DNA of 64,000 nucleotides, from contig NZ_CP100351.1 of NCBI RefSeq assembly GCF_024204645.1, forward strand, positions 992,001-1,056,000. Reading direction: 5' to 3'. A program made the position numbers and the translations under genes. Numbering within the stretch: position 1 is the stretch's first letter; every line of letters begins with the position of its first letter. This DNA comes from Desulfomicrobium sp. ZS1 (GTDB lineage: Bacteria; Desulfobacterota; Desulfovibrionia; Desulfovibrionales; Desulfomicrobiaceae). The notes beneath the pieces are model-generated. The model was not told the DNA's origin and searched no databases. It saw nothing but the letters and a program-made list of their open reading frames with translations. Below are positions 17,400 through 61,614 of the stretch, in pieces.

Positions 17400-17422
17400 T
17401 TTGAAGGTTAACGAGGTAATAT

Positions 17423-17911: not shown

Positions 17912-17921
17912 TCTAACACAC

Positions 17922-43506: not shown

Positions 43507-43610
43507 CCAGAAATCGTGCCCAATAAAGATCTAGATGTAAACATCAAGTGTGCCCAAAAACCCGAAAACAAATAGTTATGGGCACGATTTCTCGTGCCCA
43601 TAACTGTGCC
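43507..43610. promoter_or_regulatory. Probable recombinase site: palindrome and repeated GTGCCCA
   Basis: 43574-43605 is a perfect palindrome with 14-base arms (AGTTATGGGCACGA/TCGTGCCCATAACT) and a 4-base spacer. AGAAATCGTGCCCA occurs once at 43509-43522 on the plus strand and once inverted in the palindrome, and three more GTGCCC copies lie in between or just after. This spacing of subsites upstream of the recombinase gene resembles a res region. Confidence 0.55.
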
Positions 43611-43979: not shown

Positions 43980-45506
43980 TCATTTGGTGTCATCAAAAAT
44001 AGTATGAATGAGCTTATTGGCTAACAGTTCGGGGCGCAAATCAAGGTGATTTTTTGATTTTATAGAACTTCTTGATGACCAGAAAAAATAGTCCGTGGCT
44101 TTGGATGCAGATGAATTGTCGAGCACTGCGTCAAGGCTTGGAACATGGTCACCGTATAGTGCAAGCACCATCTCACGCTCAAGTTGCTTGCTTTGCCGCA
44201 TCATTTCTCCGACTCCCTCGTCTAGACTTGCAAGATGGCGAAGGTAATGTCCAAGCGAGGTGCCCGTTTTTTGTCCTTCTTTTGAAAATCTGTCTGGGAG
44301 CCAAGGACCGTGGGCTTCCATGGTGATTACAAATACAAAAAGGGGTTCTGTGGAGTTCTTCATCAAGTTTAAGGCCACATCCAAAACTTTTCTGTCACTG
44401 ACATAGGGGCCGTTTCTATCCGAGACTGAAAAGTGTTCCATACCCATGAATTGATCGAATCCTAAATTATTCATAACCATGTCGCGTCGGAAAAACTTGG
44501 GGTCATAAGGATGCAGGCAGATCGAGTGGTATCCGAGTTTTCGTAGACGGTGTGCCATGGACGTGATCGGTCTTTGCGCCGCAAGAAGATAGGGATCGAA
44601 GCTAAAAGTCTCCATCCGGCGGAGGTCAAGCCCCGTGAGTACGGAGAATTCCGTTCGCATAGTGTAGGCTCCACTCCATTCGAGCAGGAGATTTCCATAT
44701 GTCCCTTGTGACATCGCCAACCGGATGTTGGGCATGATTTCAGAACTCACTGAAGGGATAAAGCGACGGATGTCACAAAAGGATTCTGCCTGCACAATGA
44801 GCACGTGAGGCTTGATATCTGATTCTAGTTTTACATTTTGAATGTCTTTTGTTGTATATTGTACTGTGCGGAGAAGATCATCTACTCCATTTTTAAGTCT
44901 TTTGTTGTGATGTACAGCATGAAGTAGTGATGCGCCAATAGGTGTGAATCGTGCAGCATCTATGCTTGGATTAAAGCTCAAATTATTTTTTTCAAGCATT
45001 TTTTTAAGTGGGTGTCGAATCAGTCCGATCAGCATGGCTCCAAAGACGGACCATGGTATAATCGCGCAAATTCCCAGAATCATCCGCGTGTAGTTGTTCA
45101 GAGCTGTATTTTTAGCTTCCAGGAAAAGAATTCCCAAAAAAATTGTGACCCACAGACCTGCAATAATGCGCGGTGGAGTTGTGGCGTGCGCTATGTAAAG
45201 GTGGGGATGTCCAATCACCTGTCCAGCCAGAAATATATCCGAGAAGACAAGAGGTTCATGTAGAACATCCATTTTGAGCCGGTTTGTCGCCCACAAAAGC
45301 CCACTTACTCCTGTAGTTAGCCAAAGAGCGAGGAATGGGCGAGCGCTTATTGCAGCAAAGCACGCGAAGAGGGAGGAAGCCAGAGCCAAGGCAACCAAAT
45401 GGCCTATTAACATTTGTCTCTGTGGAGATGGAAGCGCCATGGCGGCTTGGCGGTTGATGAGCACGGTGAAAATGGCAGCCAGTAGAAATGCGATCAGAAA
45501 AGTCAT
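43980..45506 (-). CDS. Membrane sulfatase-fold transferase (LTA synthase-like; RkpI-like)
   Basis: 508 residues. Five hydrophobic helices (1-165) precede a large extracytoplasmic domain of the alkaline phosphatase/sulfatase superfamily: HVLIVQAESFCDIRRF, SGAYTMRTEFSVLTGL (nucleophile Thr), and the metal-binding LALYGDHVPSLD. Such enzymes move phosphoglycerol or phosphoethanolamine-type groups to glycans or lipids outside the membrane. It begins two bases after the SDR stop and ends the capsule operon. Rhizobial rkpI also encodes a membrane protein in this position, so an RkpI-like role in capsule lipid assembly is inferred. Confidence 0.82.
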   Translation of the reverse strand: MTFLIAFLLAAIFTVLINRQAAMALPSPQRQMLIGHLVALALASSLFACFAAISARPFLALWLTTGVSGLLWATNRLKMDVLHEPLVFSDIFLAGQVIGHPHLYIAHATTPPRIIAGLWVTIFLGILFLEAKNTALNNYTRMILGICAIIPWSVFGAMLIGLIRHPLKKMLEKNNLSFNPSIDAARFTPIGASLLHAVHHNKRLKNGVDDLLRTVQYTTKDIQNVKLESDIKPHVLIVQAESFCDIRRFIPSVSSEIMPNIRLAMSQGTYGNLLLEWSGAYTMRTEFSVLTGLDLRRMETFSFDPYLLAAQRPITSMAHRLRKLGYHSICLHPYDPKFFRRDMVMNNLGFDQFMGMEHFSVSDRNGPYVSDRKVLDVALNLMKNSTEPLFVFVITMEAHGPWLPDRFSKEGQKTGTSLGHYLRHLASLDEGVGEMMRQSKQLEREMVLALYGDHVPSLDAVLDNSSASKATDYFFWSSRSSIKSKNHLDLRPELLANKLIHTIFDDTK

Positions 45507-45508
45507 GC

Positions 45509-46333
45509 TTAAGAATCCTTGGAGGCAAGCGGTGATTCTTGATCAGGTTCCACATCAAATGCAAAGCCAGCGAGAAAAAAATGTGCAAGTCTATCCGGGA
45601 GGAAATGCAGGGCCTTGAGGCCAATGACTAGGGGCCATGGAAATGCGTATTCCGGGGTGTCCTTTTCCAGTGCGCGCACAATACGACGTGCAGCATGAAA
45701 CGCTGTCCAGCGCAGGGGCTGTGCTCCCTTGAGGCGTTGACTCATGGGCGTGTCAACATATCCAGGACATATCACGTTGACGCGAATTCCTTGAGGGCGG
45801 AGCAGGTGTCTTAAGGATTGACCGTAAATGCGAATAGCGGCCTTTGATGCACAATAGGCAGGGGAGCTTGGTAGACCGTAGTAGGATGCAATGGAACTGA
45901 TCAACACGATTTGGCCCTGTTTGTGCGGAAGCATCGCGTCGGCGGCAAGGGCTGCGAGGTGCATCGTGGCCACGGCGTTTGTCTCCATGACGCGCAATGT
46001 GTCAGCCAGCGTTTCATGAATTTTTTTTCCGTTTTTGCTGCGTGATGACGCGGAGACTCCCGCACAAGCGATGACCAAATCCAGAGGAGCCGTAGATGCG
46101 CACGAGTTAAGCCAGTCTGTGACGAATTCCTGGTTGCGCATATCCACCAGTGTTGAACTGACTTTAGCTCCCCTGTTCTCACATTCGCGCACGGTTTCAT
46201 TCAGGCGTCCAGACGAGCGTGCCGCAAGAAAAAGGTGACGATTCGGACCTGCATATTCCAGCGCCAAGGCTCTGCCGATTCCACTGCTGGCTCCAGTTAT
46301 CACGATATGGCGTGAGAGAGAAGATGTACTCAT
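45509..46333 (-). CDS. Short-chain dehydrogenase/reductase (RkpH-like)
   Basis: 274 residues from the ATG at 46333, which overlaps the previous stop as ATGA; an ATG nine bases earlier is also in frame. Classical SDR: cofactor motif TGASSGIGRAL, ISSIASYYG and the catalytic YCASK, with NVICPGYVDTPM. It should reduce a keto group with NAD(P)H in the cytoplasm. Sitting in the operon with the polyketide synthase and the alpha-oxoamine synthase, it is placed to reduce the 3-keto product, as in sphingoid-base pathways; rkpH in rhizobia is the nearest parallel. Reaction inferred. Confidence 0.88.
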   Translation of the reverse strand: MSTSSLSRHIVITGASSGIGRALALEYAGPNRHLFLAARSSGRLNETVRECENRGAKVSSTLVDMRNQEFVTDWLNSCASTAPLDLVIACAGVSASSRSKNGKKIHETLADTLRVMETNAVATMHLAALAADAMLPHKQGQIVLISSIASYYGLPSSPAYCASKAAIRIYGQSLRHLLRPQGIRVNVICPGYVDTPMSQRLKGAQPLRWTAFHAARRIVRALEKDTPEYAFPWPLVIGLKALHFLPDRLAHFFLAGFAFDVEPDQESPLASKDS

Positions 46334-46932
46334 GACAGCCATGTCTTGGCCATAATAATGCTCCCTAACGGATGCCTTTGAGTCAGCGTTTCACAAGCGG
46401 CTATGGTCTGATGTTGTGAAAATCCATGACGCTTATAGAAAGCGAGGGCGCGGGCGTTATCTGCCCAAGTATGCAAGGATATGCCGGTGAGACACATATC
46501 GCGAGCGCACATTTCGCTATAATCCATAAGAACGTCGGCTAGGCCGCCTCCCCGCCAAGATGGATGTACCCAGATGGTATTCACATAAAAGGTAGCGGGA
46601 ATACTTGTGGTGAGAATGCCTCGCACTGCCTCGACGCGGGCAGGAGAAAGAAACTTTTCCATGATGGGAGGGATAGTGTGCTGGGATGCGGGATAAGCGA
46701 AAATGAGCCCCGCAAGCTGTTCTTGGTGTCTAATGAGTGTGATATTGTTTATCTGAAAGTATGTGTTGCCTTCGCGTAGGATCATAGCCAGAAGTTGCTC
46801 GGTGGCAATGTCAGGGAAAAGTCCTGCAAAAAGGTGATCCACAATTCCTTCGGATGTTTTGCGAATGCATTCAGCGGCGATTTCGGCATCGTCCAGCGTG
46901 GCGCGGTGGAATTCCAAGTCCAGAGCTTTCAT
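46330..46932 (-). CDS. GNAT-family acyltransferase in capsule operon
   Basis: 200 residues. The acetyl-CoA-binding core is IWVHPSWRGGGLADVLM followed by NARALAFYKRHGF, typical for GNAT enzymes. GAGG precedes the start. It lies between KpsS and the SDR with a 4-base overlap into the latter. In sphingolipid-producing bacteria the N-acylation step is done by a GNAT-like enzyme, so an N-acyl or N-acetyl transfer to the amino lipid is possible; transfer to a capsule amino sugar is the alternative. Confidence 0.8.
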   Translation of the reverse strand: MKALDLEFHRATLDDAEIAAECIRKTSEGIVDHLFAGLFPDIATEQLLAMILREGNTYFQINNITLIRHQEQLAGLIFAYPASQHTIPPIMEKFLSPARVEAVRGILTTSIPATFYVNTIWVHPSWRGGGLADVLMDYSEMCARDMCLTGISLHTWADNARALAFYKRHGFSQHQTIAACETLTQRHPLGSIIMAKTWLS

Positions 46933-46946
46933 GTATGCACCCTCGT

Positions 46947-48254
46947 TTATGGTGTTGTCCAGATTGGTTTGGGTTCTGCATTGAAGCTGGACGGAATTTC
47001 ATCGGGGCAGGTTAACTGCATGCAAGTCGGTTGCACCATGCCTAATCGAACCATGCAATGTGCGATGGCGGTTCTGATGCCTAAAGAAGTATAAAAGTTG
47101 CCGTTGACCAATGTGCGAACCTTGAGAACCTTGAGGAAAGCGTCGAGTACGATTTTGTTCGGCTCGATAGGTAATGTCCAAAAACTGTTTAAAGGCTGAT
47201 CTATATTGCTCAAAGCAAGTCCTTGCATGGCATAAATAGACTTTCCTATGCAGTAAACTGGTCTTCCAAGTTCTAGTGCAGAGAGTCCTATGGTGCTGTT
47301 TAGAAGGACAACTCCGCTTGAGTGCTTAATCATTCGTGTTGTATTTCCATGATCAACAAAATGAACACGCTCCGAAACACCGCAAGCACGGGTAAAATCT
47401 TCAATGAATCCGGCGTAGTCGATAAGGCCGTTGTCCAAGGGATGATTTTTGATTAAAAGATGAGTGTTCTGTTCAGCATATGCTGCGAAGGAAGCAATCA
47501 CATGTCCGATCCCCTCGCGCATTCCACTAAACGGGGAATATCGTCGTACTTGCGCATCAGCATCAAGTTGAAGAGGAAAGAGAAAATACGGGTGCTTATG
47601 GTGAAAAAAATTTCTTAAAATGACCTGAGATTTTTTTTCACGTTTTTTCCGACCAAGATATCTAGGAATCCAGCCGCAGAGCTCTCTGGCGATGTTGTGT
47701 GGACGATGCGTCCTGTAACGAAAGAAGGCGGGTAACATGATTCCGTTGCAGACGTGATGAATAATTGCGTCGTACACGCGTTGTCGTATGGGATTGGGAA
47801 CCGATGTCGGAGGAAGGGGCTCGGGAAAAAGTCCAGCCGCTTCGAGCACCGCTTGAGAGTTGGTTGGCATGGTGGAATTGCCGTTTACCCCGCCTTCTTC
47901 CATGGTGATGTAGTCGGGGCGTAGGTAGCCTTCCTCAAAAACAAAGACCCGAATTCTAAAATGGCGGGCCAAAAGGACTGCTTCCCAGTGCAAAGGGCGC
48001 CAATCGCCAAAAAGAAGCAAATCAGTGACCTTTTCTTCTTGCATGATACGCGAAATCCAACTCGACCATTCCCGATTTCCGCCAAGGTAAAGTCTGGATT
48101 CTTGTCCTGGCCAATGGGCGATGTCACCACCGCAAAAATTGATTTTAATGACTGATGCGCCATAACGGCGTAAGGTGCGCCCAAGTCTGCGAAAAAAAGC
48201 GCTTTGGGGTCCCTGCAGAAACAGAAATGTGCGTTTTGTGGATGCAAGTGTCAT
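46947..48254 (-). CDS. kpsS: Capsule polysaccharide protein KpsS/RkpJ-like (beta-Kdo transferase)
   Basis: 435 residues from ATG 48254, seven bases after the alpha-oxoamine synthase stop; an in-frame ATG much further up lies inside that gene. Family features: TFLFLQGPQSAFFRRLGRTL at the start, then DLLLFGDWRPLHWEA, FVFEEGYLRPDYITMEEGGV, LLIKNHPLDNG, FVDHGNTTRMIKHSSGVVLL and NSTIGLSALELGRPVYCIG. KpsS adds the first Kdo of the poly-Kdo linker to the lipid anchor of group 2-type capsules, at the cytoplasmic face of the membrane. Its place inside the PKS operon argues that the lipid it acts on is made by this cluster. rkpJ is the rhizobial counterpart. Confidence 0.9.
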   Translation of the reverse strand: MTLASTKRTFLFLQGPQSAFFRRLGRTLRRYGASVIKINFCGGDIAHWPGQESRLYLGGNREWSSWISRIMQEEKVTDLLLFGDWRPLHWEAVLLARHFRIRVFVFEEGYLRPDYITMEEGGVNGNSTMPTNSQAVLEAAGLFPEPLPPTSVPNPIRQRVYDAIIHHVCNGIMLPAFFRYRTHRPHNIARELCGWIPRYLGRKKREKKSQVILRNFFHHKHPYFLFPLQLDADAQVRRYSPFSGMREGIGHVIASFAAYAEQNTHLLIKNHPLDNGLIDYAGFIEDFTRACGVSERVHFVDHGNTTRMIKHSSGVVLLNSTIGLSALELGRPVYCIGKSIYAMQGLALSNIDQPLNSFWTLPIEPNKIVLDAFLKVLKVRTLVNGNFYTSLGIRTAIAHCMVRLGMVQPTCMQLTCPDEIPSSFNAEPKPIWTTP

Positions 48255-48261
48255 GATATGT

Positions 48262-49620
48262 TTACCGAACAATGGCTTCCGCCCGGTCGAGGGCTTTGGG
48301 AAGTTCTTCCGCAACGGCATCAAGAGCTTGACGTACACACTCTTCCCCGTGAGCGGCCGAAAGAAAGAAGCGCAGGCGGGCGGAGCCTTCCTCAACGACG
48401 GGATAGATGATGGGCAGTACGTTCACCTTTAATTCAAACAGAGCTGTGGCTAGAAGTCCGGCAACCAGAGAACTGCCGAGTTTGATGGGCACAATCGCGT
48501 AACCATCGGCATCTCCGGTATTAAGTTGTTTATCTTTGGCGTAAGATAGAAAAAAACGGCTGATGGACTGCAATTTTTCAACCCGCCAAGGTTCTCGTAG
48601 CATTATTTCAAGGGCGGTCTTCGAGGCAGCCGCCAGTGGCGGGGACATTCCTACGCTGTATACAAAGCCGGATGCCGTGAATTTTAGCAATTCAATAAGC
48701 GATTTGCTTCCGGCTATGAATCCTCCACAACCGCATAGGGTTTTACTCAGCGTCCCCATCCAAATGTCCACATTTTGGGGATTGATGCCGAAATGCTCGG
48801 CAACTCCGCAGCCTGTTTTGCCCAGTACGCCAAAGCCATGTGCATCATCGACCATCAAAAAGCATTTATGGCGTTTTTTGAGTGCGATCAGTCCGGGTAA
48901 ATCCGCGATATGCCCGTCCATGCTAAAAAGTCCTTCCGTGACAATGAGTGCCCTCTGATATTGACCGCGATGTTCGTGCAGAAGACGTTCAAGGGCATCT
49001 AGATCATTATGAGGGAAACATATCCGATAGGCTCCGGAAGCAGTTGCGCCTTGTACAATAGAATTATGTGCAAGCGAATCTTGAAAGATGATGTCCTTGC
49101 GTCCAAATAGCTGTGAGATGGTGGAGACATTCGTTGCATGTCCGCTGACAAATGTCAGGCAGGCATCTACGTTGTATAGTTGTGCCAAAGCTTTTTCGAG
49201 TGCTCGGTGTGGTGGACGCTCCCCAGATACAAGTCTGCTGGCCGACGCCGAAGTCCCGTACCTTCGCATGGCCTCCCCGGCGGCAGCGATTATTTCCGGA
49301 TGTCCGTTCAAGTCCAAATAGTCATAGGTCGAAAAATTTAGATATGATACGCCATCAATGCTCGTGACATCTTTGGCAATGCCATCGTGGCAGGCAAAAA
49401 ATGGATTTAAGATGCCAGTCTGATTCGCCACTGCGTGCTGGATACGCAATTGTTTGTATCCGGGAAGCTCTTCAAATTGCAAATATTTATCAGGTACGTT
49501 CACGGAATCGACCCGTTCGCGCGCTTGGAAGCCGTTTTGCCCCTGCTTCATCTTGGCCAACAGATTTCGTTTGGCATCTTCCGAGAGTCCAAACAGATTA
49601 TCATGCTTGGCATCAGTCAT
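48262..49620 (-). CDS. PLP-dependent alpha-oxoamine synthase (RkpG-like)
   Basis: 452 residues from ATG 49620 with AAGGAG upstream, overlapping the PKS stop by eight bases. Fold-type I PLP enzyme: VSGHATNVSTISQLFG, DDAHGFGVLGKTGCG, and the lysine for PLP in GTLSKTLCGCGG. The N-terminal 80 residues (ELPGYKQLRIQHAV, GILNPFFACHDG, NFSTYDYLDLNGHPE) are longer than in BioF and resemble serine palmitoyltransferase and PKS-associated members. The family condenses an amino acid with an acyl thioester, releasing CO2. Coupled translation with a thioesterase-free PKS suggests it takes the chain directly from the PKS carrier domain, giving an amino ketone. The amino acid cannot be told. Confidence 0.9.
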   Translation of the reverse strand: MTDAKHDNLFGLSEDAKRNLLAKMKQGQNGFQARERVDSVNVPDKYLQFEELPGYKQLRIQHAVANQTGILNPFFACHDGIAKDVTSIDGVSYLNFSTYDYLDLNGHPEIIAAAGEAMRRYGTSASASRLVSGERPPHRALEKALAQLYNVDACLTFVSGHATNVSTISQLFGRKDIIFQDSLAHNSIVQGATASGAYRICFPHNDLDALERLLHEHRGQYQRALIVTEGLFSMDGHIADLPGLIALKKRHKCFLMVDDAHGFGVLGKTGCGVAEHFGINPQNVDIWMGTLSKTLCGCGGFIAGSKSLIELLKFTASGFVYSVGMSPPLAAASKTALEIMLREPWRVEKLQSISRFFLSYAKDKQLNTGDADGYAIVPIKLGSSLVAGLLATALFELKVNVLPIIYPVVEEGSARLRFFLSAAHGEECVRQALDAVAEELPKALDRAEAIVR

Positions 49621-52600
49621 GGCTGGTCTCCTTGGCTCTGCTTTCATCCTTCAGACTGCTTGTCACGTTCTGAGGTATGATTGTCCCATGTTGTACTTGC
49701 ATGGTTTGTAAAATATGTGCTTCGTCATCAAGATGTTGAGTGCCGTCCAGCGTCTCGTAAAAGCGTTCGGCAATGGTTGTGATGCTGGCTCCTCCGGAGA
49801 GGGAGATCGTAGGAGTTTCAAGCCCAAATCGTTCTTCCAATGCAATTCCAAGCTCCACAGCCATGAGGGAATCCATCCCGAAATCTGCCACGGGTGTGGT
49901 GAGCGCCAGTCGGCCAGAGGGAATGCGTAGGATACTTGCGACCTCTTCGGCTATGCATTCGGAGAGGAATTGGACAGCCTCTTTGCGGTTTTTGCCTTTG
50001 ATTTGTTCCAAAAGTGAATCGCTGGTTCGCTCATCTTCATGCCCGCTTCCCGGACGCATGTTCTCAAAACGGTTTGAAGCGGCATTGGGCAGACGCTTAG
50101 CTTTGTTCCAGTCAATTTTGAATATGGCGGGAATGGTCACGCCCCGCCAATGCAAACGTTCAAGAAGATCTAATGCATCCGTTGCCTTGATGGCCGTTAC
50201 GCCAAGAATGGTTCGTAAGGATTCCAGGGCATTGGGGTCGCGCACAAGCATTCCAGCATCGGCGATAGGCCCCCAAGCAATCGCCACAGCAGGTAGACCA
50301 CGGGAACGTCGGTACCCTGCCAAGGTTTCCAGTGCACAGTTGGCAGCGACATAATTTGCCTGGCCAGGGTTACCCATCAGAGTTGTTGCCGAAGAGTAGA
50401 GAATAAAGAACTCAAGGTCGTAGGTCAGGGAATAGGTGTGGAGGTTCCAGGCACCTACGGCTTTTGCCTTGAGTACCTGCTTAAATCGCTCTGGATTTTG
50501 GTTCATGATGATCGCATCGTCCAGGACCGCTGCCGCATGAATGATACCTTTGAGGGGCTTGGTATTACGAAGTGCCTCGTCCAGCGCGGAACGCATGGCG
50601 AGTTCGTCCGATACATCCGCTTTGATGATGCTTACAGTAGCACCTTTTTTACGCAGGGACGCTAGTACCGTGTCCGCTTCAGGTGCACCCTTTCCGCTAC
50701 GACCAAGGAGCAGAAGGTGCTTTGCCCCACGCTCCACAAGACGTTCGGCTGTCTTGAGTCCAAACCCTCCAAGTCCTCCACTGATCAGGTACGAACCCTT
50801 GGCAGTGATAGGTAATTCCGCTGAGATCTTGGGCGCTGGGCGGACTCCGCGAACATGCTCATCAAAAGTAACCACCAGTTTTCCGATATGTCGAGATTGT
50901 TGCATGGTGCGAAAGGCTTCGCTTGCGTTGGCACGGGAGAAAATTCGGTGAGGAAGCGGGCGCAGAATTTTTTTGGAGAAGAGGTCCATGAGGTCGGAAA
51001 AAAGCTGTCGTGCCATTCTTGGTCTTGCTGTGAGCAACTGGTCGACATCGATTCCGAAGTAGCTGATGTTGTTGCGAAACGGTCTTAAGAACATGGGGCT
51101 GTCCCCATAGAAGTCTCGTTTGCCCAATTCGAGAAAGCGTCCAAAGGGCCGCAACACCGAGAGGCCCTTGGCAATGGCTTCGCCGTGAAGGGAATTGAGG
51201 ACCATATCCACGCCATCGCCTTCCGTTTTCTCCATGATGTCATCAGCGAATCGATACGAGCGCGAGTCAAGGATATGCTTGACCCCCAAGAGTTTCAGAA
51301 AATCGCGTTTTTCATCGGACCCGGCCGTCGCAAACACTTCCAGGCCAAGGTGGTTTGCAATTTGAATGGCAGCCAGTCCGACACCACCTGCCGCGCCATG
51401 CACAAGCACACGTTCGCCGGGAAGCGCTCTCGCCAGATGTTTCAGCGCATAAAAGGCCGTGAAGAATGCAACGGGAATTGTTGCAGCCTCTTCATGCGAC
51501 AAACCATGGGGTTTCTGAACCACGGCCGCTTCACTGGTGGTAACAAAGGAACTAAAACAGGACGGGGCAAAGCAAACAACATCGTCGCCGACCTGGAAAT
51601 CTATCACGCCTTCGCCAACGGCGGAGACGACACCGCTACATTCCAAACCCATTGTTGGGCCGGAAAAACCGTTTTCCAGGGCTTCATCCGGTAGCATTCC
51701 CATTGCCCACATGACATCGCGGAAGTTAAGTCCCGTGGCCATTGTCTGGATTTGAATCTGGCCGGGGCCAGGCAAACAGCGAGAAATCTGACGCCAGTAA
51801 AGGCGGTCAAACTTGCCCGGCACGTCAAACATCAACCGAATAGCATCAGCAACATCGGGTGTGTTGGGACGAGCAGGCGTGGAATCAAAGGATTCAATTT
51901 TGGCGCGATAGCGGCGATCATCGATGAGGACGAGCTCTTGATCCGGTCCCGGCGATAACAGTTCCTGTGCAAGCCCGTCGAGCTGGGCTTTGCTCGGAAT
52001 TCCTCCCGCCAAATCGATAAGTCGAGTGTCCAAGCCGGGCATCTCGTTTTGCAATACTCTGCCAAATCCCCACAGAGGAGCTTGCGACATGACTGGTCTA
52101 ATCTGCTCCCCCGCAACTTCCTGGCATCCCCCGTTGATGAACCAGAACCGGCAGGAGGGATGGTCAGCCATATTCCAGCCCTGAGCCATAGCTGTCGCCA
52201 CGCATGTTCTGCGCATGGCGACATCAAGAAGATGTTGCGCAGAACATTCTGGCTGAAATTCGAGCCCCAGCAGGTGGACGCATTCGACACGCTCCCGATC
52301 CCGCAAAGAAGCCCAAACATTGCGCCAGTCATCGGCATTTTCAGGATCAAAATTTACCCGTCCATTTTTTACGGGAAATTGCTCCCCAGTGCTCGCCAAA
52401 ATTATATCGGCTCCTGCCTTGTCCAAAGATTTGGCGAGGGTATCACGGACCAAAAATTCGTCAGGATTGGAATCATCGGCAAGCAAGAGCCATGTTGTCC
52501 GCGCATCTGGGGGCGTATTGCGTGGCTGATAATCGACTTCGGCAGGTCGCTGTCCCAGGAGAATAAAACTGTCCGGAGCATACCCGTTGCAGGGTTCGTG

Positions 52601-55600
52601 CAGGACACAAGCATCCGCATAACCGGCTAGTTGCAAAGCTCGCACCCAGCTTGAACAGGAGAGGAGGCGGGAAGACGGTTCTTCAGGCGAAGAAGAGCGT
52701 GTCCACCAGTGCGGATCAGTTCCTTGAATCATGTTTTCGAGGCTTGAAGGACTTCGTTCGATACATACCAAAACGCCTCCAGGTGCCAATAAGGAAAGAC
52801 AGCCTTGGAGTGCCTCTTCTATTCGGTCCACTGCATGCAGTGCCTGACCCGACAGGATCACATCATACTTCTCGAATTCCGATGCGTCGGGATGTTCAAC
52901 GTCGAGGACAGAAAAAGAGATACCATGCTGGTTTTCCCAAGTTGCTTTAAGCAATTCCAATGCGCTTGGTTCTTTCTCTGAGACCACGTAGTCGCAAACT
53001 CCGGCATCAAGAACAGGAATGATTGTGCTTAAGAGTCCACCTGGCGCAGCACCGACTTCCAAAATGCGCAGACGTCTGCCGGGAGGGCAGCGTACCACGC
53101 ATTCGCGCACCAATGTAGCCACTACTTCGTTGACCAAGCGAATCGAGGGCGCGTTGGCATATAAGTGTTCGATGGTTGCCCCTTGCTCTTGGCCGAGTAT
53201 GGCTTGCGGGAGCATTGCCCCGCTGAGCAATTGGCGCAGGTGCAATCCGACCCTTCCAATAAGAACCGCTTCAGGGAGATGGGCGGGATAGTCGGCGATT
53301 ATTGTCCTCCACAAGGTCACGGAAGGGGGGAGGCCGCTCTCGTGTTCGACGATCCAGGAACCTTGCGCATGTCGGGCAAGATCATGGCTTGCCAGCAGTT
53401 CGAGAATGAAAACAAGGTAGGGGATGTTTTCCTGTGTGACGAGGCCCATGGTGACACCGTCGGACACTTTGAATGAGCCGATTTTAGCCAGTGGTTTGAT
53501 CGCTTCATGAGCCAGAGCAATGGTCGCCGCTTGGCAGAGTGCAAGAACTGTATCAAAATAAGCTTTCCGATCAAGTAATTGCGCCTTGTCTTCCACAACC
53601 GGGGTGAGGATTTTCTTGAGGTCCAGGGGAGAAGGCACTGCCGCAATTTTGCGTGCCATTGGATGCGGCTGGGCTATAAAAACAGTTCTGTAGGCATCCA
53701 ACTCCCGCTCAGACGCGGCTCGCAAGTCCACACGTCGAAATCTGCAATCATCAAGGGTCGCCAAAACAAGTCCTTGAGCATCATACAGTATGAAGGAAGC
53801 CACAATGGAACGAGTCGAGATTCGGAGTAGACTTGCTCTGGCATAGCGAACATTCCCTGGGGCAAAAAAGATCGAGCGTCCAAACCAGGACGGTAGGAAA
53901 GCGGAACGGTTATTTTTAGGGAGTCGCTCTGCCAGAAGTATAAAAAGAGCCTGAAACGCGCCATCGACCAACGGGGGAGCCAGATGCAAATTCTGGCCTG
54001 CCAAGGGATCAGACAGCTTCATTTCGACAATGACGCTTTCTCCATCGCGCCATGCCCCATGAATCGGGGTGAAAGGTGGAGCATAGTGCAGCCCCATTGT
54101 TCGTGCAGTATTGTACAAAGAGGCAACAGGAAGCGCTTCCGCATCACGGCAACGCAATTCGATATTTTCCGGGGCGGGGCGTTGAGCGTCGCAAGCACAG
54201 ACACGGCCGTTGCCATGAACAATCCAGTCTTCGGTGGTCAGAACGGTTTTGCTCGCAATGCGCAGTAGTCCATCTTTCTCAAGAGAGGTGCGGACTTTTT
54301 TGGGTGAAGTACTGCTCAGCACAAAGGGGCGACGAATGTCGAGATTGACGATTTCGATGACGTCTGAATCCGGAGCATGCAACCGTCCTGCTGCATGGCA
54401 AAGTTCGAGAAAACCGGCAGCAGGGAAAAGAATCGTTTCTCCGATAATATGCCCCGCAAGCCAAGGATAAAGTTGTGTATCAAGAGTGTTTTCGTACGTT
54501 TCCAGTTCATTTCCCAATACTCTGCCCAGTAGGGGATGCACGGGCCTGCCTGACAGGAGTCCCGCGCTCTCGGCTGTTGATGACAGCCAAAGCCGCTCTC
54601 GATCCCAAGGATAAGTCGGTAAGGAAATTCGTTTGGGTTGGCGAGGGAAGATGTGTTGAACGTCCATGGGCCAACCTGAAGTGTAGGCTCTGCGCCATGC
54701 CGCTTCGAACATGACCGCGTCATCTGCATTCCGCTTGAGGGTCGGTACGACACAGGCGCGTATGCCGGAGGTACGGATGGCGTCTTTGACGTAGTATTGC
54801 AGTACTCCGTGTGCACCGATTTCAAGAAAAATTCTGGCTCCGTTGTTCAGCAGCGTCTGTGTTGCAGTCAAAAATTGTACCGGCTGGCGGATATTTTGCC
54901 ACCAGTAAGCCGCCCCCAAGTCTGTCCCTTCGGTATCCTCCCCCGTTACTGTTGAAACAAAACGAGTATGTCCAGGACGAGGGGTTATGTCCGCAAGCGC
55001 ATTCTGTAACGGCAGTTTGAGGCCGTCCATGTATCGACTGTGAAAGGGATAGGCCAAAGGCAGGACCTTACAGAAGCCCTTTTCGGCGGCAATCTCTTCC
55101 TCAATGGCCCTCAGCGCCTTGAGGTCACCGGCCAAGGTCACCGAACCGGCTGAATTGATAGCTGCAATTTCGATTTTTCCGTTTGCGGCTTTGGCTAGGG
55201 TCATGGCCCTTTGCATGTCGATGTTGACCGCAGCCATGCCTCCGCTACCATGAGTGAGGCCTTGAAGGGCGCTGCGGTGGTAAATGACGGTACAGGCGTC
55301 TTTCAAGTCAAGAGCCCCGCTTGCGTAGGCTGCGGCAACCTCGCCCACGCTGTGTCCGTAGACAGCGCGGGGGATGATGCCCTTGGCTTTGAGGGCGGCC
55401 ACAAGTCCAATCTGTACGGCAAAGAGCAGCGGTTGGGCCACTTCGGTACGGTCCAGCTCCCAGGTTTGTGTCGACATGCGTATGCGTTCGGCCACGGACC
55501 AACCTTGGAGCGGAGCCAGATAGTCATCGACTTCTCCCAACGCATCGCTGAAAGCGGTGTTCGTTTTCAACAGGGCCGCACCCATTCCTGGCCATTGGCA

Positions 55601-57247
55601 ACCATTGCCCGAAAACACGAATACGGAATCTCCCTTTGCGCAGGCAACATCACCCTGCTCGATCTGGTATGAAGCTGTGTATTTTTCGATCGGCTGTTCC
55701 TGCTCAAACGTTGTCAGCGCGGTGATCATGCTTGAGCGATCGGCAGCCGTGACGATCATCCGATTTTCGAGATGATCGCGCCGCATGGCTGTGGCAGCTG
55801 CCAGATCATAGACAGACGTGCTTTCGTCTTCTGCCAATCTCCGAGCATAGATACCAGCCAGATGAGCCAAGCTCGGGTGGCTACGGGCGCTGAGCAGGAG
55901 AGTGGGCCACGAAGGAACCGGATGCTCAGTATTCTGCTCGGTCTGACAAGAATTGATACCTTCGAGCACTACATGTGCATTGGTTCCTCCGAATCCAAAG
56001 GAATTAACGCCAATGAGCGGTGGTTCATCTCCGGTGGGCAGGAGCACTGGAGCGGTAGGGACACAGAGATTTTGTCCCATGAAATCAATGGAGGGATTGG
56101 GTGTCTCTAAATGCAAATTGGCCGGGATTGTGCCATTTTTGAGAATGGTGAGGGCTTTCAAAAGTCCGGCCATGCCTGACCCTGTTTCCAGATGTCCAAG
56201 GTTTCCTTTGACCGAACCAACGTAGAGCGGACGGTCCTTGGGTCGGGACAAGCCAAGAACAGTCCCGATAGATGCGGCTTCGATCGGATCTCCAGCAGCG
56301 GTGCCAGTGCCATGCGCTTCCATGTAAGCCAGACGCGCGAGGTCAATTCCTTCGGTCGAGTAGATCTTGCGCAACAGATCTTCCTGGGCGGCCCCATTGG
56401 GCAGGGCGATGCCGGTGGTACGGCCATCTGAATTGACAGCGGTGGCACGGATGACGGCATGGATTTGATCACCGTCGGTCAAGGCTTGCTCCAAACGCTT
56501 GATGAGAACAACTCCTCCTCCCTCGGCACGGACATACCCATTGCCCGATGAATCAAAAACTTTACACCGTCCGTCCTTGGACAGCATGTGCGCCTTGGAA
56601 AAACCGATAAAGGGGAAGGGCGTCAGCAAGATGTTCACGCCTCCGGCAACGGCCAGTGGCAAATCGTCATCAAGAACCGCTCGACAGGCCTGATGCAATG
56701 CGACCAAAGCTGAAGAACAAGCGGTATCGATTGTCATGCTCGGGCCGTGCAGATCAAAAAAATAGGAAACCCGGTTGGAGATGATGCCAAGGGATGTGCC
56801 TGTCATGGAATATGGTCCCATGATGCAGGGGTCTTCGGCCCGACACATGCCCATGTCGGTTGAGGCTGCACCGATAAACACGGCAGTACGTGACCCGGCC
56901 ATTGAAGATGGCGGAATTCCCGCGTCTTCAAAAGCCTCCCATGTCATTTCCAGAACCAAGCGTTGCTGCGGATCGAGGTTTTCAGCTTCCTTGCGGGAAA
57001 TTCCGAAAAAACCAGCATCAAAGCCTGTGATGTCCTCCAGTACGCCGGCAGCGAAAGTGCAGGAGCGCCCAGGGGCTTTACGGTCCGGATGGATAAATCT
57101 CTCCAAGTCGAATCTGTCGGGAGGGATGCTGGTTACGGCGTCGCGGCCGTCAATGAGAAGTTGCCACAGGTCATCCAGAGAGTTGACCTTTCCGGGGAGA
57201 CGGCATCCGACACCGATGATGGCGAGAGAATTTTGGTTTGAGTTCAT
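49613..57247 (-). CDS. Highly reducing type I polyketide synthase (RkpA-like)
   Basis: 2544 residues. Domains: KS 6-430 (Cys177 in DTACSSA, His312, His352), AT about 545-860 (Ser633 in GHSVGE; YPFH at 733-736), DH about 903-1175 (His933, Asp1095), C-methyltransferase-like 1230-1560 (EVGAAPGG), ER about 1808-2127 (VHGAAGGVGLAA), KR about 2150-2350 (GGLGGFG, Tyr2299) and ACP with Ser2460 (GMDSLMAV). No thioesterase follows. This set is that of an iterative, fully reducing, fungal-like synthase, so it should make a saturated, perhaps methyl-branched chain. RkpA of rhizobia is of comparable size and placing. No ribosome site is evident before the ATG; the upstream 230 bases are AT-rich and probably hold the promoter. 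Confidence 0.95.
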   Translation of the reverse strand: MNSNQNSLAIIGVGCRLPGKVNSLDDLWQLLIDGRDAVTSIPPDRFDLERFIHPDRKAPGRSCTFAAGVLEDITGFDAGFFGISRKEAENLDPQQRLVLEMTWEAFEDAGIPPSSMAGSRTAVFIGAASTDMGMCRAEDPCIMGPYSMTGTSLGIISNRVSYFFDLHGPSMTIDTACSSALVALHQACRAVLDDDLPLAVAGGVNILLTPFPFIGFSKAHMLSKDGRCKVFDSSGNGYVRAEGGGVVLIKRLEQALTDGDQIHAVIRATAVNSDGRTTGIALPNGAAQEDLLRKIYSTEGIDLARLAYMEAHGTGTAAGDPIEAASIGTVLGLSRPKDRPLYVGSVKGNLGHLETGSGMAGLLKALTILKNGTIPANLHLETPNPSIDFMGQNLCVPTAPVLLPTGDEPPLIGVNSFGFGGTNAHVVLEGINSCQTEQNTEHPVPSWPTLLLSARSHPSLAHLAGIYARRLAEDESTSVYDLAAATAMRRDHLENRMIVTAADRSSMITALTTFEQEQPIEKYTASYQIEQGDVACAKGDSVFVFSGNGCQWPGMGAALLKTNTAFSDALGEVDDYLAPLQGWSVAERIRMSTQTWELDRTEVAQPLLFAVQIGLVAALKAKGIIPRAVYGHSVGEVAAAYASGALDLKDACTVIYHRSALQGLTHGSGGMAAVNIDMQRAMTLAKAANGKIEIAAINSAGSVTLAGDLKALRAIEEEIAAEKGFCKVLPLAYPFHSRYMDGLKLPLQNALADITPRPGHTRFVSTVTGEDTEGTDLGAAYWWQNIRQPVQFLTATQTLLNNGARIFLEIGAHGVLQYYVKDAIRTSGIRACVVPTLKRNADDAVMFEAAWRRAYTSGWPMDVQHIFPRQPKRISLPTYPWDRERLWLSSTAESAGLLSGRPVHPLLGRVLGNELETYENTLDTQLYPWLAGHIIGETILFPAAGFLELCHAAGRLHAPDSDVIEIVNLDIRRPFVLSSTSPKKVRTSLEKDGLLRIASKTVLTTEDWIVHGNGRVCACDAQRPAPENIELRCRDAEALPVASLYNTARTMGLHYAPPFTPIHGAWRDGESVIVEMKLSDPLAGQNLHLAPPLVDGAFQALFILLAERLPKNNRSAFLPSWFGRSIFFAPGNVRYARASLLRISTRSIVASFILYDAQGLVLATLDDCRFRRVDLRAASERELDAYRTVFIAQPHPMARKIAAVPSPLDLKKILTPVVEDKAQLLDRKAYFDTVLALCQAATIALAHEAIKPLAKIGSFKVSDGVTMGLVTQENIPYLVFILELLASHDLARHAQGSWIVEHESGLPPSVTLWRTIIADYPAHLPEAVLIGRVGLHLRQLLSGAMLPQAILGQEQGATIEHLYANAPSIRLVNEVVATLVRECVVRCPPGRRLRILEVGAAPGGLLSTIIPVLDAGVCDYVVSEKEPSALELLKATWENQHGISFSVLDVEHPDASEFEKYDVILSGQALHAVDRIEEALQGCLSLLAPGGVLVCIERSPSSLENMIQGTDPHWWTRSSSPEEPSSRLLSCSSWVRALQLAGYADACVLHEPCNGYAPDSFILLGQRPAEVDYQPRNTPPDARTTWLLLADDSNPDEFLVRDTLAKSLDKAGADIILASTGEQFPVKNGRVNFDPENADDWRNVWASLRDRERVECVHLLGLEFQPECSAQHLLDVAMRRTCVATAMAQGWNMADHPSCRFWFINGGCQEVAGEQIRPVMSQAPLWGFGRVLQNEMPGLDTRLIDLAGGIPSKAQLDGLAQELLSPGPDQELVLIDDRRYRAKIESFDSTPARPNTPDVADAIRLMFDVPGKFDRLYWRQISRCLPGPGQIQIQTMATGLNFRDVMWAMGMLPDEALENGFSGPTMGLECSGVVSAVGEGVIDFQVGDDVVCFAPSCFSSFVTTSEAAVVQKPHGLSHEEAATIPVAFFTAFYALKHLARALPGERVLVHGAAGGVGLAAIQIANHLGLEVFATAGSDEKRDFLKLLGVKHILDSRSYRFADDIMEKTEGDGVDMVLNSLHGEAIAKGLSVLRPFGRFLELGKRDFYGDSPMFLRPFRNNISYFGIDVDQLLTARPRMARQLFSDLMDLFSKKILRPLPHRIFSRANASEAFRTMQQSRHIGKLVVTFDEHVRGVRPAPKISAELPITAKGSYLISGGLGGFGLKTAERLVERGAKHLLLLGRSGKGAPEADTVLASLRKKGATVSIIKADVSDELAMRSALDEALRNTKPLKGIIHAAAVLDDAIIMNQNPERFKQVLKAKAVGAWNLHTYSLTYDLEFFILYSSATTLMGNPGQANYVAANCALETLAGYRRSRGLPAVAIAWGPIADAGMLVRDPNALESLRTILGVTAIKATDALDLLERLHWRGVTIPAIFKIDWNKAKRLPNAASNRFENMRPGSGHEDERTSDSLLEQIKGKNRKEAVQFLSECIAEEVASILRIPSGRLALTTPVADFGMDSLMAVELGIALEERFGLETPTISLSGGASITTIAERFYETLDGTQHLDDEAHILQTMQVQHGTIIPQNVTSSLKDESRAKETSHD

Positions 57248-57483: not shown

Positions 57484-59508
57484 TTACTTATTTTCGCATT
57501 GCTTCCATATTTCGCGTAGGTTCCAGAGCAGGCGAACCCAAAATTTTCCTTGCATTTTGGATGAAGGGTCCCTCAAGCGAGAGCATACTTCCTCGGGACC
57601 GCAGAACATCCCCGTCCGCCAATCGAAATAAGTTGGGTAGAGGATGAGGGTGCCCGCGACCAATTCATCTATGGCGAGTCTTCGCTCGCGACGTGGAAAA
57701 TCTAACCGGTCCCGTGTCATGCCCCATCCGGCATAGAACGGTCCTCCATAGGTGTGGACCGGCACATCGCGCAGCAGGGCCTCGAACCCTGTCAGCGAAG
57801 TTAAGGTATGAACCTCGTCCACGGTGTTCAAAAGATGGTGCATGTTGGCATCTCGCAGCACCTGATCTGCATGGCGCAGTGCCTGCACGTCGAGAATTTT
57901 ACCTTGGCGGTTACTGCGCTCCACATCAGGATGAGGCTTGTACAGGATGAACGCATCTGGACATGTCCGCCTGACCTCTGCCAAAAGCTCAAGGTTGGAG
58001 GTGATGTCCCCGCCGCCGAGGCGTACGGAAGCATCGTCTTCGACTTGACCAGGCACCAGGACGATCCTGCGATTCTTGGGAAATGAAGCGGTAATTAGGG
58101 AATTAGCCGAAACATTGTATTTGGTAATGCCCTGAGCCAAGATGTGGAGACGAAGCGCCTTGGCCCGATCCTGTAGTTCTGGCGAAAATTCATTGAATTG
58201 CAAAATGGTTTCAAGTCTGCTTGGTCGTGAGGGATCATAATAGATGCCTTGTTCATCAAGAACCAGCGAATAGGGCCAGTGAAAATCCGACCCGAGACCT
58301 GCTGAACGGATGAATCCGTCTTCCATGCGTACAAGCCTAATTCCAGCCGTTTTACACTCCTGTTCAAGATCTTCGCTGGCCCGTGAGGACCAGACCACAA
58401 TCCGACCGCTGTTTTTTGCGGCATGAGTGATAGCTTTGTGCTGGGAAGAAAAAAAACGGGTTGCTCCGTTAGTTGATGAAAGAAATGCCTGTGCATGGGG
58501 GTGCTTCCAGCGGGAGAAATTGAGGCAAGCCGTGTACCCGGCGTTGCGTTCGTTTATTTCTCGCTGCCGGGCGAGAATGCGGATGATTTCATGGATGTCG
58601 CAGCGTTGTCCGGTAAACGGATTCACATAGCGAGCATAAATGATGTATGCGGCGGCGAAGATTTCGAGCGTCGACCGTTTTCGAGTGCGGCGTTGGCAGG
58701 ACAGTTCGTCCCTAGTTACGCCCCAACCCGCATAAAAAGGCAGTCCGAAGCAATGAACGTCCTTGCCTAAGAGCAAAGCTTCAAAACCCATCTGCGAGGT
58801 GACGGTGAATACGGCGTCTGCCTGGGCCAAGAGGGATAACGGCGCGAAGTCCTCGGCGATGACGGTTATTCCGTCCAAAGCAGCAGAAGTTGTAAGATAT
58901 CCTTTTTTCTTTCCGGCAATGACATCCGGATGGGTTTTCACGAAAAAGCGTCCCTTGGGAAATCGTGACTTTGCTGCTTTCACCATGCTTTGGAATGATG
59001 ATGCGTCAGCCGCACCCAAGCCTACGCTCATGTCACCGACGGTCTGGTCAATGAGTAAAATGCGCGGACGAGATGAATCGCCTAAAAGCTCATTTGGTGC
59101 CGTTGGGGCATGATTGTATTTACTCAGGCAAAATCTCAAGATGGACGCGAGGGCTTTTTCACTCTCTTGGAGAAATTCGGCATTCAGTTCTCCTTGCTCC
59201 AGTAATTGTTCTAAATCTGAGGGTTGACGTGCATCGTAGTAGATGCCCTGTCCGTCAACCACTAGGGAGAGAGGAGGCGCACCGTTGCAGCCAAGATCCA
59301 AGGAACGTAAAAAACCATCTTCGAGGCGCAGGATCGGCAATCCGTGCCTGCGAGCAAAATCTTCGCCTTTTTGGGATGTGGGGCGTCGTCCCCAAACCGC
59401 GATGGAGGATAACGCTATCGTCGTTTTATCAGGATTTATCACCGAATCGCCTAAAAAGACTGAAAGCAAAGAAATGGACCTTATGCCAGGGGAACAGACT
59501 CCGATCAT
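57484..59508 (-). CDS. kpsC: Capsule polysaccharide beta-Kdo transferase KpsC
   Basis: 674 residues made of two homologous halves: the first half carries LRLEDGFLRSLDLG, PPLSLVVDGQGIYYDARQPS, FFVKTHPDV and SQMGFEALLLGKDVHCFGLPFYAGWG; the second repeats these as VRMEDGFIRSAGLG, YSLVLDEQGIYYDPSRPS, LYKPHPDV and TGFEALLRDVPVHTYGGPFYAGWG. This is the double Kdo-transferase design of KpsC, which extends the poly-Kdo linker on the lipid anchor. It starts six bases after the KdsB-KdsC stop, so all Kdo genes are in one unit. Confidence 0.95.
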   Translation of the reverse strand: MIGVCSPGIRSISLLSVFLGDSVINPDKTTIALSSIAVWGRRPTSQKGEDFARRHGLPILRLEDGFLRSLDLGCNGAPPLSLVVDGQGIYYDARQPSDLEQLLEQGELNAEFLQESEKALASILRFCLSKYNHAPTAPNELLGDSSRPRILLIDQTVGDMSVGLGAADASSFQSMVKAAKSRFPKGRFFVKTHPDVIAGKKKGYLTTSAALDGITVIAEDFAPLSLLAQADAVFTVTSQMGFEALLLGKDVHCFGLPFYAGWGVTRDELSCQRRTRKRSTLEIFAAAYIIYARYVNPFTGQRCDIHEIIRILARQREINERNAGYTACLNFSRWKHPHAQAFLSSTNGATRFFSSQHKAITHAAKNSGRIVVWSSRASEDLEQECKTAGIRLVRMEDGFIRSAGLGSDFHWPYSLVLDEQGIYYDPSRPSRLETILQFNEFSPELQDRAKALRLHILAQGITKYNVSANSLITASFPKNRRIVLVPGQVEDDASVRLGGGDITSNLELLAEVRRTCPDAFILYKPHPDVERSNRQGKILDVQALRHADQVLRDANMHHLLNTVDEVHTLTSLTGFEALLRDVPVHTYGGPFYAGWGMTRDRLDFPRRERRLAIDELVAGTLILYPTYFDWRTGMFCGPEEVCSRLRDPSSKMQGKFWVRLLWNLREIWKQCENK

Positions 59509-59514
59509 AATAAT

Positions 59515-60789
59515 CTATTGCGTTGCAGAGGTGAGAATTTTTTCAATTCCCTGTGCTGTGTTCAGATTGTCGAGCAAGCCTTTGGCTGCAAGAATCAATT
59601 CGGCAGCTTCTCGAAAAGCCCCTCTCCCGCCATTAGTCGAAAGAACGCAAGTGGCATTCTGTTTGATTGAGTCTACAGCATCGCCTACGGCAAAAGAAAA
59701 GCCGCAGGATGCAAAGGCGGGCAAGTCGATGACGTCATCTCCAATAAAAGCGGTATCGGATAGAGACACTCCATGAGTGGCGGCGAGAATTTCACACCCT
59801 TCGCGTTTGCAAAGTGTTCCGAGAAGGTGCTTGTCAATTTTCAAGTCTTGGAGGCGTTTTCGAAGAGCAGGGCAGTCACGTCCCGACAGCACGCTAACTG
59901 GAATTCCAGCAGAATTGAGCATTTTCATGCCCAAACCATCACGAGCATTGAACGACTTTAGTTCTTCCCCATTTTCCCCATAGTGCAACAACCCGTCCGT
60001 GAACACGCCGTCAACATCGGTAATGACGAGTTTGATCTCAGCAAGTGAGCGAGGCAAATCGCGGGATGTACCTGAGATGATAGCTCGGACCTGTTTCAGA
60101 TCTTCAAGTGTATCGACTCCGGGAAATGCGCTTGATGTCTCCAGTACTTTAATGGAAATCCCGGCCTGAAGATAACGCAATTGCTCCAATTTTTCGCAAT
60201 CTTCCAGCGGTGATGATGGAAGATGTTGAAACTGAAGAAGTGCGTCTTTTCGGTACCCATACAGGCCAATATGTTTGAATTTTGGAGGATTTTCAGATTT
60301 GTCACGATTGCAAGGAATCGCGCAGCGGCTGAAATAGAGTGCATCGCGGTTGTGTCTGAGCACAACCTTGACGACATTCGTATCCCTCGCAGTCAGGTCG
60401 TCAATAGGGGCGCAGAGGGTCGCGACCTGCACAGAGTCATCAGTCAGGAAGGCATTAATAACAAGATCAATGTCTTGAGGGCGGATCAAGGGTTCGTCGC
60501 CTTGTACATTGATGAACACGTCGGCGGAAGATTTTTTGGCCACTTCGATCAGGCGATCCGTGCCAGAAGCGCAATTCAGTGGTGTCATTACGGCTTTGCC
60601 GCCAAAGTTTGCCACTGTGTCAAAAATCCGCGCATCATCTGTCGCAACAACGACGTCGTGCGCAAGTGCGGAAAGGGAAGCTTTGCGGTAAACGTGTTCG
60701 ATCATGGGTTTGCCCAAGATGTCGAGCAATGGTTTTCCGGGAAGTCTGGATGATCCGTAACGAGCAGGGATGACAATGAGAACGCGCAT
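59515..60789 (-). CDS. kdsB-kdsC: Fused CMP-Kdo synthetase / Kdo-8-phosphate phosphatase
   Basis: 424 residues. Residues 1-240 are KdsB: IPARYGSSRLPGKPL, FINVQGDEPL, and KHIGLYGYRK; this makes CMP-Kdo from Kdo and CTP. Residues 250-424 are the HAD phosphatase KdsC: ITDVDGVFTDG (D258, D260), SGRDCPALRKR and FIGDDVIDLP; this removes phosphate from Kdo-8-phosphate. Usually these are separate genes. The fusion joins the last two steps of Kdo activation. AAGGCGG precedes the start; kdsA lies three bases upstream. As an alternative the phosphatase half could act on a different keto acid, but the neighbours favour Kdo. Confidence 0.93.
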   Translation of the reverse strand: MRVLIVIPARYGSSRLPGKPLLDILGKPMIEHVYRKASLSALAHDVVVATDDARIFDTVANFGGKAVMTPLNCASGTDRLIEVAKKSSADVFINVQGDEPLIRPQDIDLVINAFLTDDSVQVATLCAPIDDLTARDTNVVKVVLRHNRDALYFSRCAIPCNRDKSENPPKFKHIGLYGYRKDALLQFQHLPSSPLEDCEKLEQLRYLQAGISIKVLETSSAFPGVDTLEDLKQVRAIISGTSRDLPRSLAEIKLVITDVDGVFTDGLLHYGENGEELKSFNARDGLGMKMLNSAGIPVSVLSGRDCPALRKRLQDLKIDKHLLGTLCKREGCEILAATHGVSLSDTAFIGDDVIDLPAFASCGFSFAVGDAVDSIKQNATCVLSTNGGRGAFREAAELILAAKGLLDNLNTAQGIEKILTSATQ

Positions 60790-60792
60790 TAT

Positions 60793-61614
60793 TTAATCCG
60801 CCTTGATCGCGGCGTGGATGGCCTTGAGTTCTTCCAAAAGTTTGGGGAGTTGCTTGAAAGACAACATGTTTGGGCCATCACAGGGCGCTTTGTCAGGGTC
60901 GGGGTGAACTTCCAGGAAGATGCCGGAAATGGCACCACTGGCCATGGCGGAACGAGCAAGGAGAGGAACGAATTCTCGTTGTCCACCACTGGAGTCGCCG
61001 TTGGCGCCAGGCAGTTGGACTGAATGAGTCGCGTCAAAAATTACCGGACAACCAGTAGTCTCCTTCATGATTTGAAGGCCGCGCATATCGACCACAAGAT
61101 TGCCGTAGCCAAAAGATGTGCCGCGTTCGCAGACGAAAAATTGCGTATCGGGATAGCCAGCATCAGCAGCAGCTTGACGCGCCTTCTCGATAACGTTTTT
61201 CATGTCCCAAGGGGCAAGGAATTGTCCTTTTTTAATGTTAACGGGCTTTCCCGTGGATGCGACGGCGGAAATGAAGTCGCTTTGGCGGCAAAGAAAAGCG
61301 GGGGTTTGAAGATAGTCCACCACCTCTGAGACAGGCTGAGCCTGCCAAGCTTCGTGCACATCGGTAATAACCGGGATGCCGAATTTTGATTTAATCTCTG
61401 CGAGGATTGAAAGACCCTTGTCGAGTCCTACGCCACGAAAGCTGTTCCCAGAGCTGCGGTTGGCTTTGTCGAAGGAGGATTTATAAATAATTTGCAATTC
61501 CTCTTTTGCAAAGATGTCTTTGAGCTGTTGAGCAATTTCGAGTGCGAAAGAATGAGACTCTATGGCGCATGGGCCAATAACAAAGAAAAACTTTGCTGTT
61601 GAATCTTTCTGCAT
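60793..61614 (-). CDS. kdsA: Kdo-8-phosphate synthase
   Basis: 273 residues, the usual size. Motifs: [65 protein letters not shown] and the late [15 protein letters not shown]. It joins PEP and arabinose-5-phosphate in the first step of Kdo synthesis. AAGGA lies six bases before the ATG. It stands at the head of the kds part, which runs kdsA, kdsB-kdsC, kpsC. Confidence 0.97.

Follow-up and report, generated by a model that had tools for sequence, protein, structure and literature searches.

A polyketide synthase module of the rkp-1/wcb type in a Desulfomicrobium capsule locus, with a proposed pathway to its lipid

What do a polyketide synthase and an alpha-oxoamine synthase contribute to a capsule locus? 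This question is raised by six genes on the minus strand, between positions 43980 and 57247, of a 64,000-nucleotide stretch of the Desulfomicrobium sp. ZS1 genome (termed here the window; all positions refer to it). In transcription order these encode a polyketide synthase (PKS), an alpha-oxoamine synthase, a KpsS-family protein, a GNAT, a short-chain dehydrogenase (SDR) and a sulfatase-fold protein. The anchor known for group 2 capsules is (lyso)phosphatidylglycerol, or (lyso)PG, carrying Kdo on the glycerol (PMC7694667, PMC11041684); KpsS is the enzyme that attaches the first Kdo (PMC7694667, PMC11041684, PMC12220298), and a review describes ABC-transporter capsules as starting on a conserved beta-Kdo-PG terminus, the Vi antigen excepted (PMC12220298). 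Synthesis of a lipid carrier or anchor has been ascribed to the rkp-1 products (PMC3557214, PMC4881576), and the homology between wcb and rkp has likewise been noted (PMC3908369); the module type, along with the proposal of such a carrier or anchor, is therefore known. New here are the assignment of the sulfatase-fold protein, its occurrence, within this bacterial class, only together with the PKS, the strict membership of the GNAT in the same class, and a second type of locus that has neither KpsC nor KpsS.

The six genes and the capsule locus around them

The features concerned are these:

49613..57247, minus strand: iterative highly reducing type I PKS (RkpA/WcbR type), 2544 aa, KS-AT-DH-MT-ER-KR-ACP (from Pfam domains and catalytic motifs)
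48262..49620, minus strand: alpha-oxoamine synthase (RkpG/WcbT type), 452 aa, PLP lysine K293
46947..48254, minus strand: KpsS-family Kdo transferase (RkpJ type), 435 aa (Pfam PF05159; NCBIfam NF050054 below its cut-off)
46330..46932, minus strand: GNAT acyltransferase, 200 aa (AlphaFold2 model, pLDDT 93.5)
45509..46342, minus strand: short-chain dehydrogenase, SDR (RkpH type, by homology)
43980..45506, minus strand: membrane phosphoglycerol-transferase-like sulfatase-fold enzyme (RkpI type), 508 aa, five predicted membrane helices (below, the transferase)
57484..59508, minus strand: KpsC, dual-module Kdo transferase, 674 aa (PF05159, two stretches)
59515..60789, minus strand: CMP-Kdo synthetase fused to a HAD phosphatase (likely a Kdo-8-phosphatase)
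60793..61614, minus strand: Kdo-8-phosphate synthase
61632..63782, minus strand: 716-aa capsule-operon protein with an N-terminal HAD-like motif (SFDIFDTLISRP)

The initial annotation, which had described six same-strand genes with tiny overlaps or gaps in a probable sulfate reducer, holds on both points: the open reading frames lie on the minus strand where it placed them, and the host genus is Desulfomicrobium. Successive junctions from PKS to transferase measure -8, +7, +14, about -13 and +2 bases. Read directly from the DNA, the synthase gene has its likely Met start at 49620 and its stop at 48262, and the KpsS gene runs from a likely Met start at 48254 to a stop at 46947; the TTG start listed for KpsS at 48395 is unlikely, because it would run into the synthase gene. 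The gap between KpsC and the PKS is 236 bases, so that the six genes may form a transcription unit of their own. A promoter match at 57275-57246 was set aside because it overlaps the PKS start codon, and an RNA family search found none in the region.

The set sits within a complete group-2-like ABC capsule locus. The genes for KpsC, the CMP-Kdo synthetase-HAD fusion and Kdo-8-phosphate synthase lie upstream of the PKS on the same strand, and KpsD-, KpsE-, KpsT-, KpsM- and KpsF-like genes follow just outside, past the window end; a search of the whole genome found one KpsS and one KpsC. The gene content that marks group 2 (ABC-transporter, Kdo-linked) systems--KpsC, KpsS, Kdo supply and KpsMTED-like export--is all present, as in the E. 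coli kps locus, which, however, uses (lyso)PG and is without a PKS, oxoamine synthase, GNAT or phosphoglycerol transferase. The 716-aa protein, for which Pfam gave no match, is probably a glycan-specific enzyme.

On the other flank, a 14-base inverted repeat (AGTTATGGGCACGA / TCGTGCCCATAACT) at 43574-43605, between the transferase gene and a resolvase gene (42898-43473) and with further GGGCACGA copies close to it, would be either a terminator or a resolvase site. Farther away, sensory genes are densely packed over positions 13015-37739 (PAS/GAF/Cache histidine kinases, an HTH-PAS protein, a chemotaxis receptor, a GGDEF enzyme and a sigma-54 response regulator), partly in low-GC DNA.

Relatives of the module and its conservation

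A Sinorhizobium meliloti locus (CP090106.1, termed here L044), the record of which carries no rkp gene names and which is therefore assigned to rkp-1 by order and homology, encodes a PKS, oxoamine synthase, SDR, sulfatase-fold protein and KpsS beside KpsF, in agreement with the published order rkpA-G-H-I-J. (The open reading frame in the rkpI position, 16382-17917, is omitted from the plasmid-database gene table, with its frame and its motif RTEFAVLSG intact.) The likeness to rkp-1 that had been claimed for the window is borne out by these five proteins, which occur together, are co-directional as in the window and are each homologous to their counterparts there, at identities of 49% (KS), 46% (synthase), 30% (SDR), 28% (sulfatase-fold protein) and 35% (KpsS). 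Thus the window holds what characterizes an rkp-1/wcb-type module: a mono-modular reducing PKS of the RkpA/WcbR type, an adjacent RkpG-type synthase, an SDR, a sulfatase-fold protein and KpsS. The rkp-1 gene order is not kept: KpsS directly follows the synthase in the window but comes last in rkp-1, and the window adds the inserted GNAT, a methyltransferase domain in the PKS, and adjoining Kdo synthesis and KpsC genes. Order was not taken as defining, because it varies widely within such modules. The same five functions, KpsS included, occur in Burkholderia wcb (wcbR, wcbT) and in rearranged, GNAT-carrying versions on plasmids of Pseudomonas (L045) and Paraburkholderia (L046); unlike the window, these have other orders, an extra LpxC-like deacetylase or phytanoyl-CoA-dioxygenase-like gene, and distant GNATs.

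Relatives of the synthase are encoded at no fewer than 591 places in public genomes. Among the best 80 of these at least 591 loci, 61 have a PKS in the same locus, and at least 21 of the 61 have KpsS or KpsC nearby (a lower bound, because many flanks are short). This type of capsule lipid module is widespread in Proteobacteria.

Within the class, 199 genomes were surveyed, a PKS being counted at a KS identity of at least 50%. Conserved order in other Desulfovibrionales, which the initial annotation had proposed as a check, is found: the full order PKS-synthase-KpsS-GNAT-SDR-transferase recurs in seven other genomes, and at least four more share it minus the SDR (four such clusters coming from gut Desulfovibrio), so that the arrangement is not due to chance. 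Two genomes, G117 and G141, have PKS-synthase-GNAT with SDR and transferase, KpsS being missing between. A strong transferase match occurs in 22 of the 199 genomes, a PKS in 26 and the GNAT in 17. All 22 transferase genomes have the PKS; the transferase never occurs without it in the class (Fisher p about 1e-25, a value that is too strong, as are the survey's Fisher p-values generally, because the genomes are related, the one-sidedness still being clear). PF05159 proteins (KpsC/KpsS) occur in 28 of the 199 genomes, 16 of them with a PKS.

The GNAT, too, is confined to PKS genomes (17/17) and lies within the module in every case; in this class it is a strict member of the module, which rules out a one-off intruder. 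The initial annotation's view of it as an extra gene marking a notable departure consequently falls, since it is shared by all 17 of these genomes and other GNATs accompany the Pseudomonas and Paraburkholderia versions. A comparison of the latter with the window GNAT gave no match, and the S. meliloti locus has no GNAT. The AlphaFold2 model is an ordinary GNAT fold, for which a fold search matched general acetyltransferases only.

Enzymes of the predicted pathway

The PKS retains its catalytic motifs (DTACSS, EAHGTGT, NLGH, GHSVGE, HIIGETILFP, DGAFQ, HGAAGGVG, YVAAN, DSL). Its earlier description as a reducing PKS stands as regards the reducing domains and needs one correction: Pfam also finds a C-methyltransferase-like domain, which it does not find in the S. 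meliloti PKS. The domains are otherwise alike, and KS identity to the Paraburkholderia enzyme is 58%. A sponge PKS of the Swf type was considered and rejected, inasmuch as SwfA has been set apart from RkpA/WcbR and the HGTGT motif, present in the window PKS, assigned to the latter (PMC3908369).

The synthase, whose gene overlaps that of the PKS by 8 bases, is 46-53% identical to those of L044, L045 and L046. Both marks of an alpha-oxoamine synthase are found: the PLP lysine, K293 within GTLSK, is invariant among homologues, and profile matches to Kbl and serine palmitoyltransferase (SPT) fall below 1e-90, the enzyme lying near serine palmitoyltransferase and Kbl/BioF. PKS-linked synthases share an N-terminal helix-like extension that is absent from seven PKS-less Desulfovibrio synthases (60-64% core identity), a hint, from sequence, that the extension would suit docking to the PKS. 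Those seven come from gut and rumen Desulfovibrio (L050, L051, L053, L054, L057, L060, L061), where the oxoamine synthase stands alone; in L061 glycosyltransferases come after it. They possibly belong to a separate sphingoid-type glycolipid pathway.

For the RkpI homologue the best match in the PDB is the phosphoglycerol transferase GacH (3e-22 with the single sequence, 1e-39 when a 31-sequence profile was used); LtaP and then LtaS come next. In an AlphaFold2 model (pLDDT 86) a sulfatase domain is accompanied by five long N-terminal helices, and in a fold search with this model GacH, LtaP and LtaS rank above MCR-1/EptA; no phosphoethanolamine transferase is among the PDB sequence and profile matches, and that assignment is not supported by the sequence, profile and fold searches. 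The nucleophile T282 and the metal ligands E241, D453 and H454 are invariant among 26-31 homologues. Thus the structural features of the GacH/LtaS type (sulfatase fold, Thr nucleophile, metal ligands and membrane anchor) are all present, and by sequence, modelled fold and catalytic residues the protein is a GacH/LtaS-type phosphoglycerol transferase, its activity being predicted. It shares with GacH, LtaP and LtaS the fold, the nucleophile, the metal ligands and the five membrane helices, and differs from them in accompanying a lipid-making PKS module in Gram-negatives. Outside the class it was found in 16 of 28 PKS-synthase genomes (picked because it mostly is not seen near the PKS there) and, as a strong match, in none of five PKS-less controls; the other 12 of the 28, some of them metagenome assemblies, gave no match to a single-sequence query.

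In a second type of locus, seen in G004, G067, G111, G114 and G197 (and, in pieces, in G188), the PKS and synthase come first, an outer-membrane exporter and KpsM/KpsT/KpsE homologues next, and glycan genes after these. The same stretch or genome has a conserved glycosyltransferase pair, a GT2 glycosyltransferase, an SDR and the transferase; this GT4-GT-GT2-SDR-transferase tail is conserved at about 45-65% identity, and three of the loci have an SDR-GT2 fusion beside the transferase. The loci are:

G067: L133/L132
G114: L130/L042
G111: L131/L041
G004: L134/L135
G197: L136/L040 (the two halves on different contigs)

Searches of these genomes for PF05159 proteins (at E 1e-15) and for GNATs of the window's family found neither. 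Because the same core occurs both in Kdo loci and in loci without KpsC and KpsS, PKS, synthase, SDR and transferase constitute a lipid core that can be separated from its sugar starter, which is Kdo in some loci and non-Kdo in others. Of the earlier idea of a lipid for a Kdo-linked capsule, the capsule link, visible in the adjoining capsule genes, is therefore retained and the tie to Kdo is not. G117, in which KpsMTED homologues adjoin the module, likewise gave no PF05159 match, which may be a gap in a genome that is 97% complete.

A putative lipid anchor and the alternatives

Gene content and order, homology, catalytic residues, co-occurrence and the enzyme class at the fifth step below are observations; the substrates and products, the sequence of the second to fifth steps, and a role of the lipid as anchor rather than helper are what the model proposes in addition. 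According to this best model, which is held tentatively and stands just short of an even chance of being right, the six genes would supply an ABC-transporter capsule with its lipid anchor and first sugar, and an N-acylated, sphingoid-like phosphoglycerol lipid replaces lyso-PG as the acceptor. The PKS would build a reduced, possibly methyl-branched acyl chain iteratively on its ACP. The synthase, perhaps docked to it through the N-terminal extension, would then free the chain by decarboxylative condensation with an amino acid, yielding an alpha-amino ketone like 3-ketosphinganine, which the SDR would turn into an amino alcohol and the GNAT would N-acylate at the amine. Fifth, the transferase would move glycerol phosphate from phosphatidylglycerol to a hydroxyl of this lipid, the product resembling lyso-PG; finally KpsS would place the first Kdo on that glycerol and KpsC would lengthen the poly-Kdo linker, on which the capsule glycan would be built for export by KpsMTED. 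The early steps have a counterpart in serine palmitoyltransferase, bacterial sphingolipid synthesis and fumonisin-type PKS-synthase pairs, where an acyl chain is joined to an amino acid and an SDR acts next; unlike sphingolipid synthesis, this pathway would draw its chain from a PKS dedicated to it, and its cluster is linked to capsule export. That a phosphoglycerol transferase is coupled to PKS, synthase and SDR suggests that the amino lipid is given the same glycerol-phosphate head as lyso-PG. By analogy with LtaS, the transferase domain would be periplasmic, whereas KpsS is cytosolic; the lipid would then need to flip back, a point against the model.

The main rival, unlikely though to be taken seriously, is that the amino lipid is a carrier, chaperone or membrane component for export and that ordinary lyso-PG serves as the covalent anchor, as it does in E. 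coli. A KpsS specialized for a different acceptor might form a clade specific to the module, and the KpsS tree has none: the window KpsS groups with KpsS from Desulfovibrionales that have no module (e.g., G167, 53% identity), and module and non-module KpsS overlap in their NF050054 scores, so that KpsS seems to move between systems unspecialised. On sequence grounds, this would be expected if both kinds of KpsS accept a glycerol head group, and would fit equally well if KpsS never meets the module's lipid. Two published points can be claimed for the anchor model and for this rival alike: rkp-1 is described as needed for K-antigen secretion (PMC4881576), and the S. meliloti 1021 K polysaccharide is reported, as cited in PMC5539429, to have a phospholipid anchor. 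Should that anchor be an acyl phospholipid of the ordinary kind, the lipid of rkp-1 would become a helper. Yet the transferase's confinement to PKS genomes suggests that the lipid gains a PG-like head, and the core also occurs in loci without KpsC and KpsS, where Kdo priming on lyso-PG is unavailable. Other points that weigh against the anchor model are the SDR missing from four gut Desulfovibrio clusters, the outside genomes lacking a transferase match, and the S. meliloti locus without a GNAT.

It is improbable that the transferase and SDR instead decorate the capsule glycan with phosphoglycerol on a sugar, the lipid being made by PKS, synthase and GNAT only. GacH, the nearest solved relative, does act on a polysaccharide, putting phosphoglycerol on a streptococcal carbohydrate, and the SDR-GT2 fusions lie beside the transferase; nonetheless the transferase stays with the PKS across loci of very different glycan genes and is absent from module-less capsule genomes in the class. 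Highly improbable is that these are secondary-metabolite genes which merely adjoin capsule genes. Fungal pairs of PKS and oxoamine synthase make secreted metabolites and, in Planktothrix, a PKS has a related synthase fused to it, but KpsS falls within the gene order, and PKS-synthase pairs have capsule genes as neighbours in Desulfovibrionales, Pseudomonas, Shinella, Sinorhizobium and Paraburkholderia, among others.

If the anchor model is right, capsules would be anchored differently in a large proteobacterial group that includes nitrogen-fixing symbionts, and the identity of the rkp-1 lipid and the role of RkpI would become testable through a named enzyme activity. A broader and more doubtful extension is that the core's phosphoglycerol-headed, sphingoid-like lipid is an interchangeable primer--extended either with Kdo through KpsS and KpsC, with a GNAT, or by GT4-GT-GT2 without Kdo--and that many proteobacterial ABC-transporter capsules hang from a sphingolipid-like anchor rather than from lyso-PG. 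The loci without KpsC and KpsS amount to a natural experiment on exporter recognition.

Other versions of the module carry further candidate lipid-modifying genes. In Paraburkholderia (L046, 12887-13801) and Ralstonia (L103) an LpxC-like deacetylase gene lies between PKS and synthase and a different GNAT is also present, which may point to N-deacylation and re-acylation; more speculatively, the PhyH-like genes beside some versions would suit hydroxylation of a sphingoid chain.
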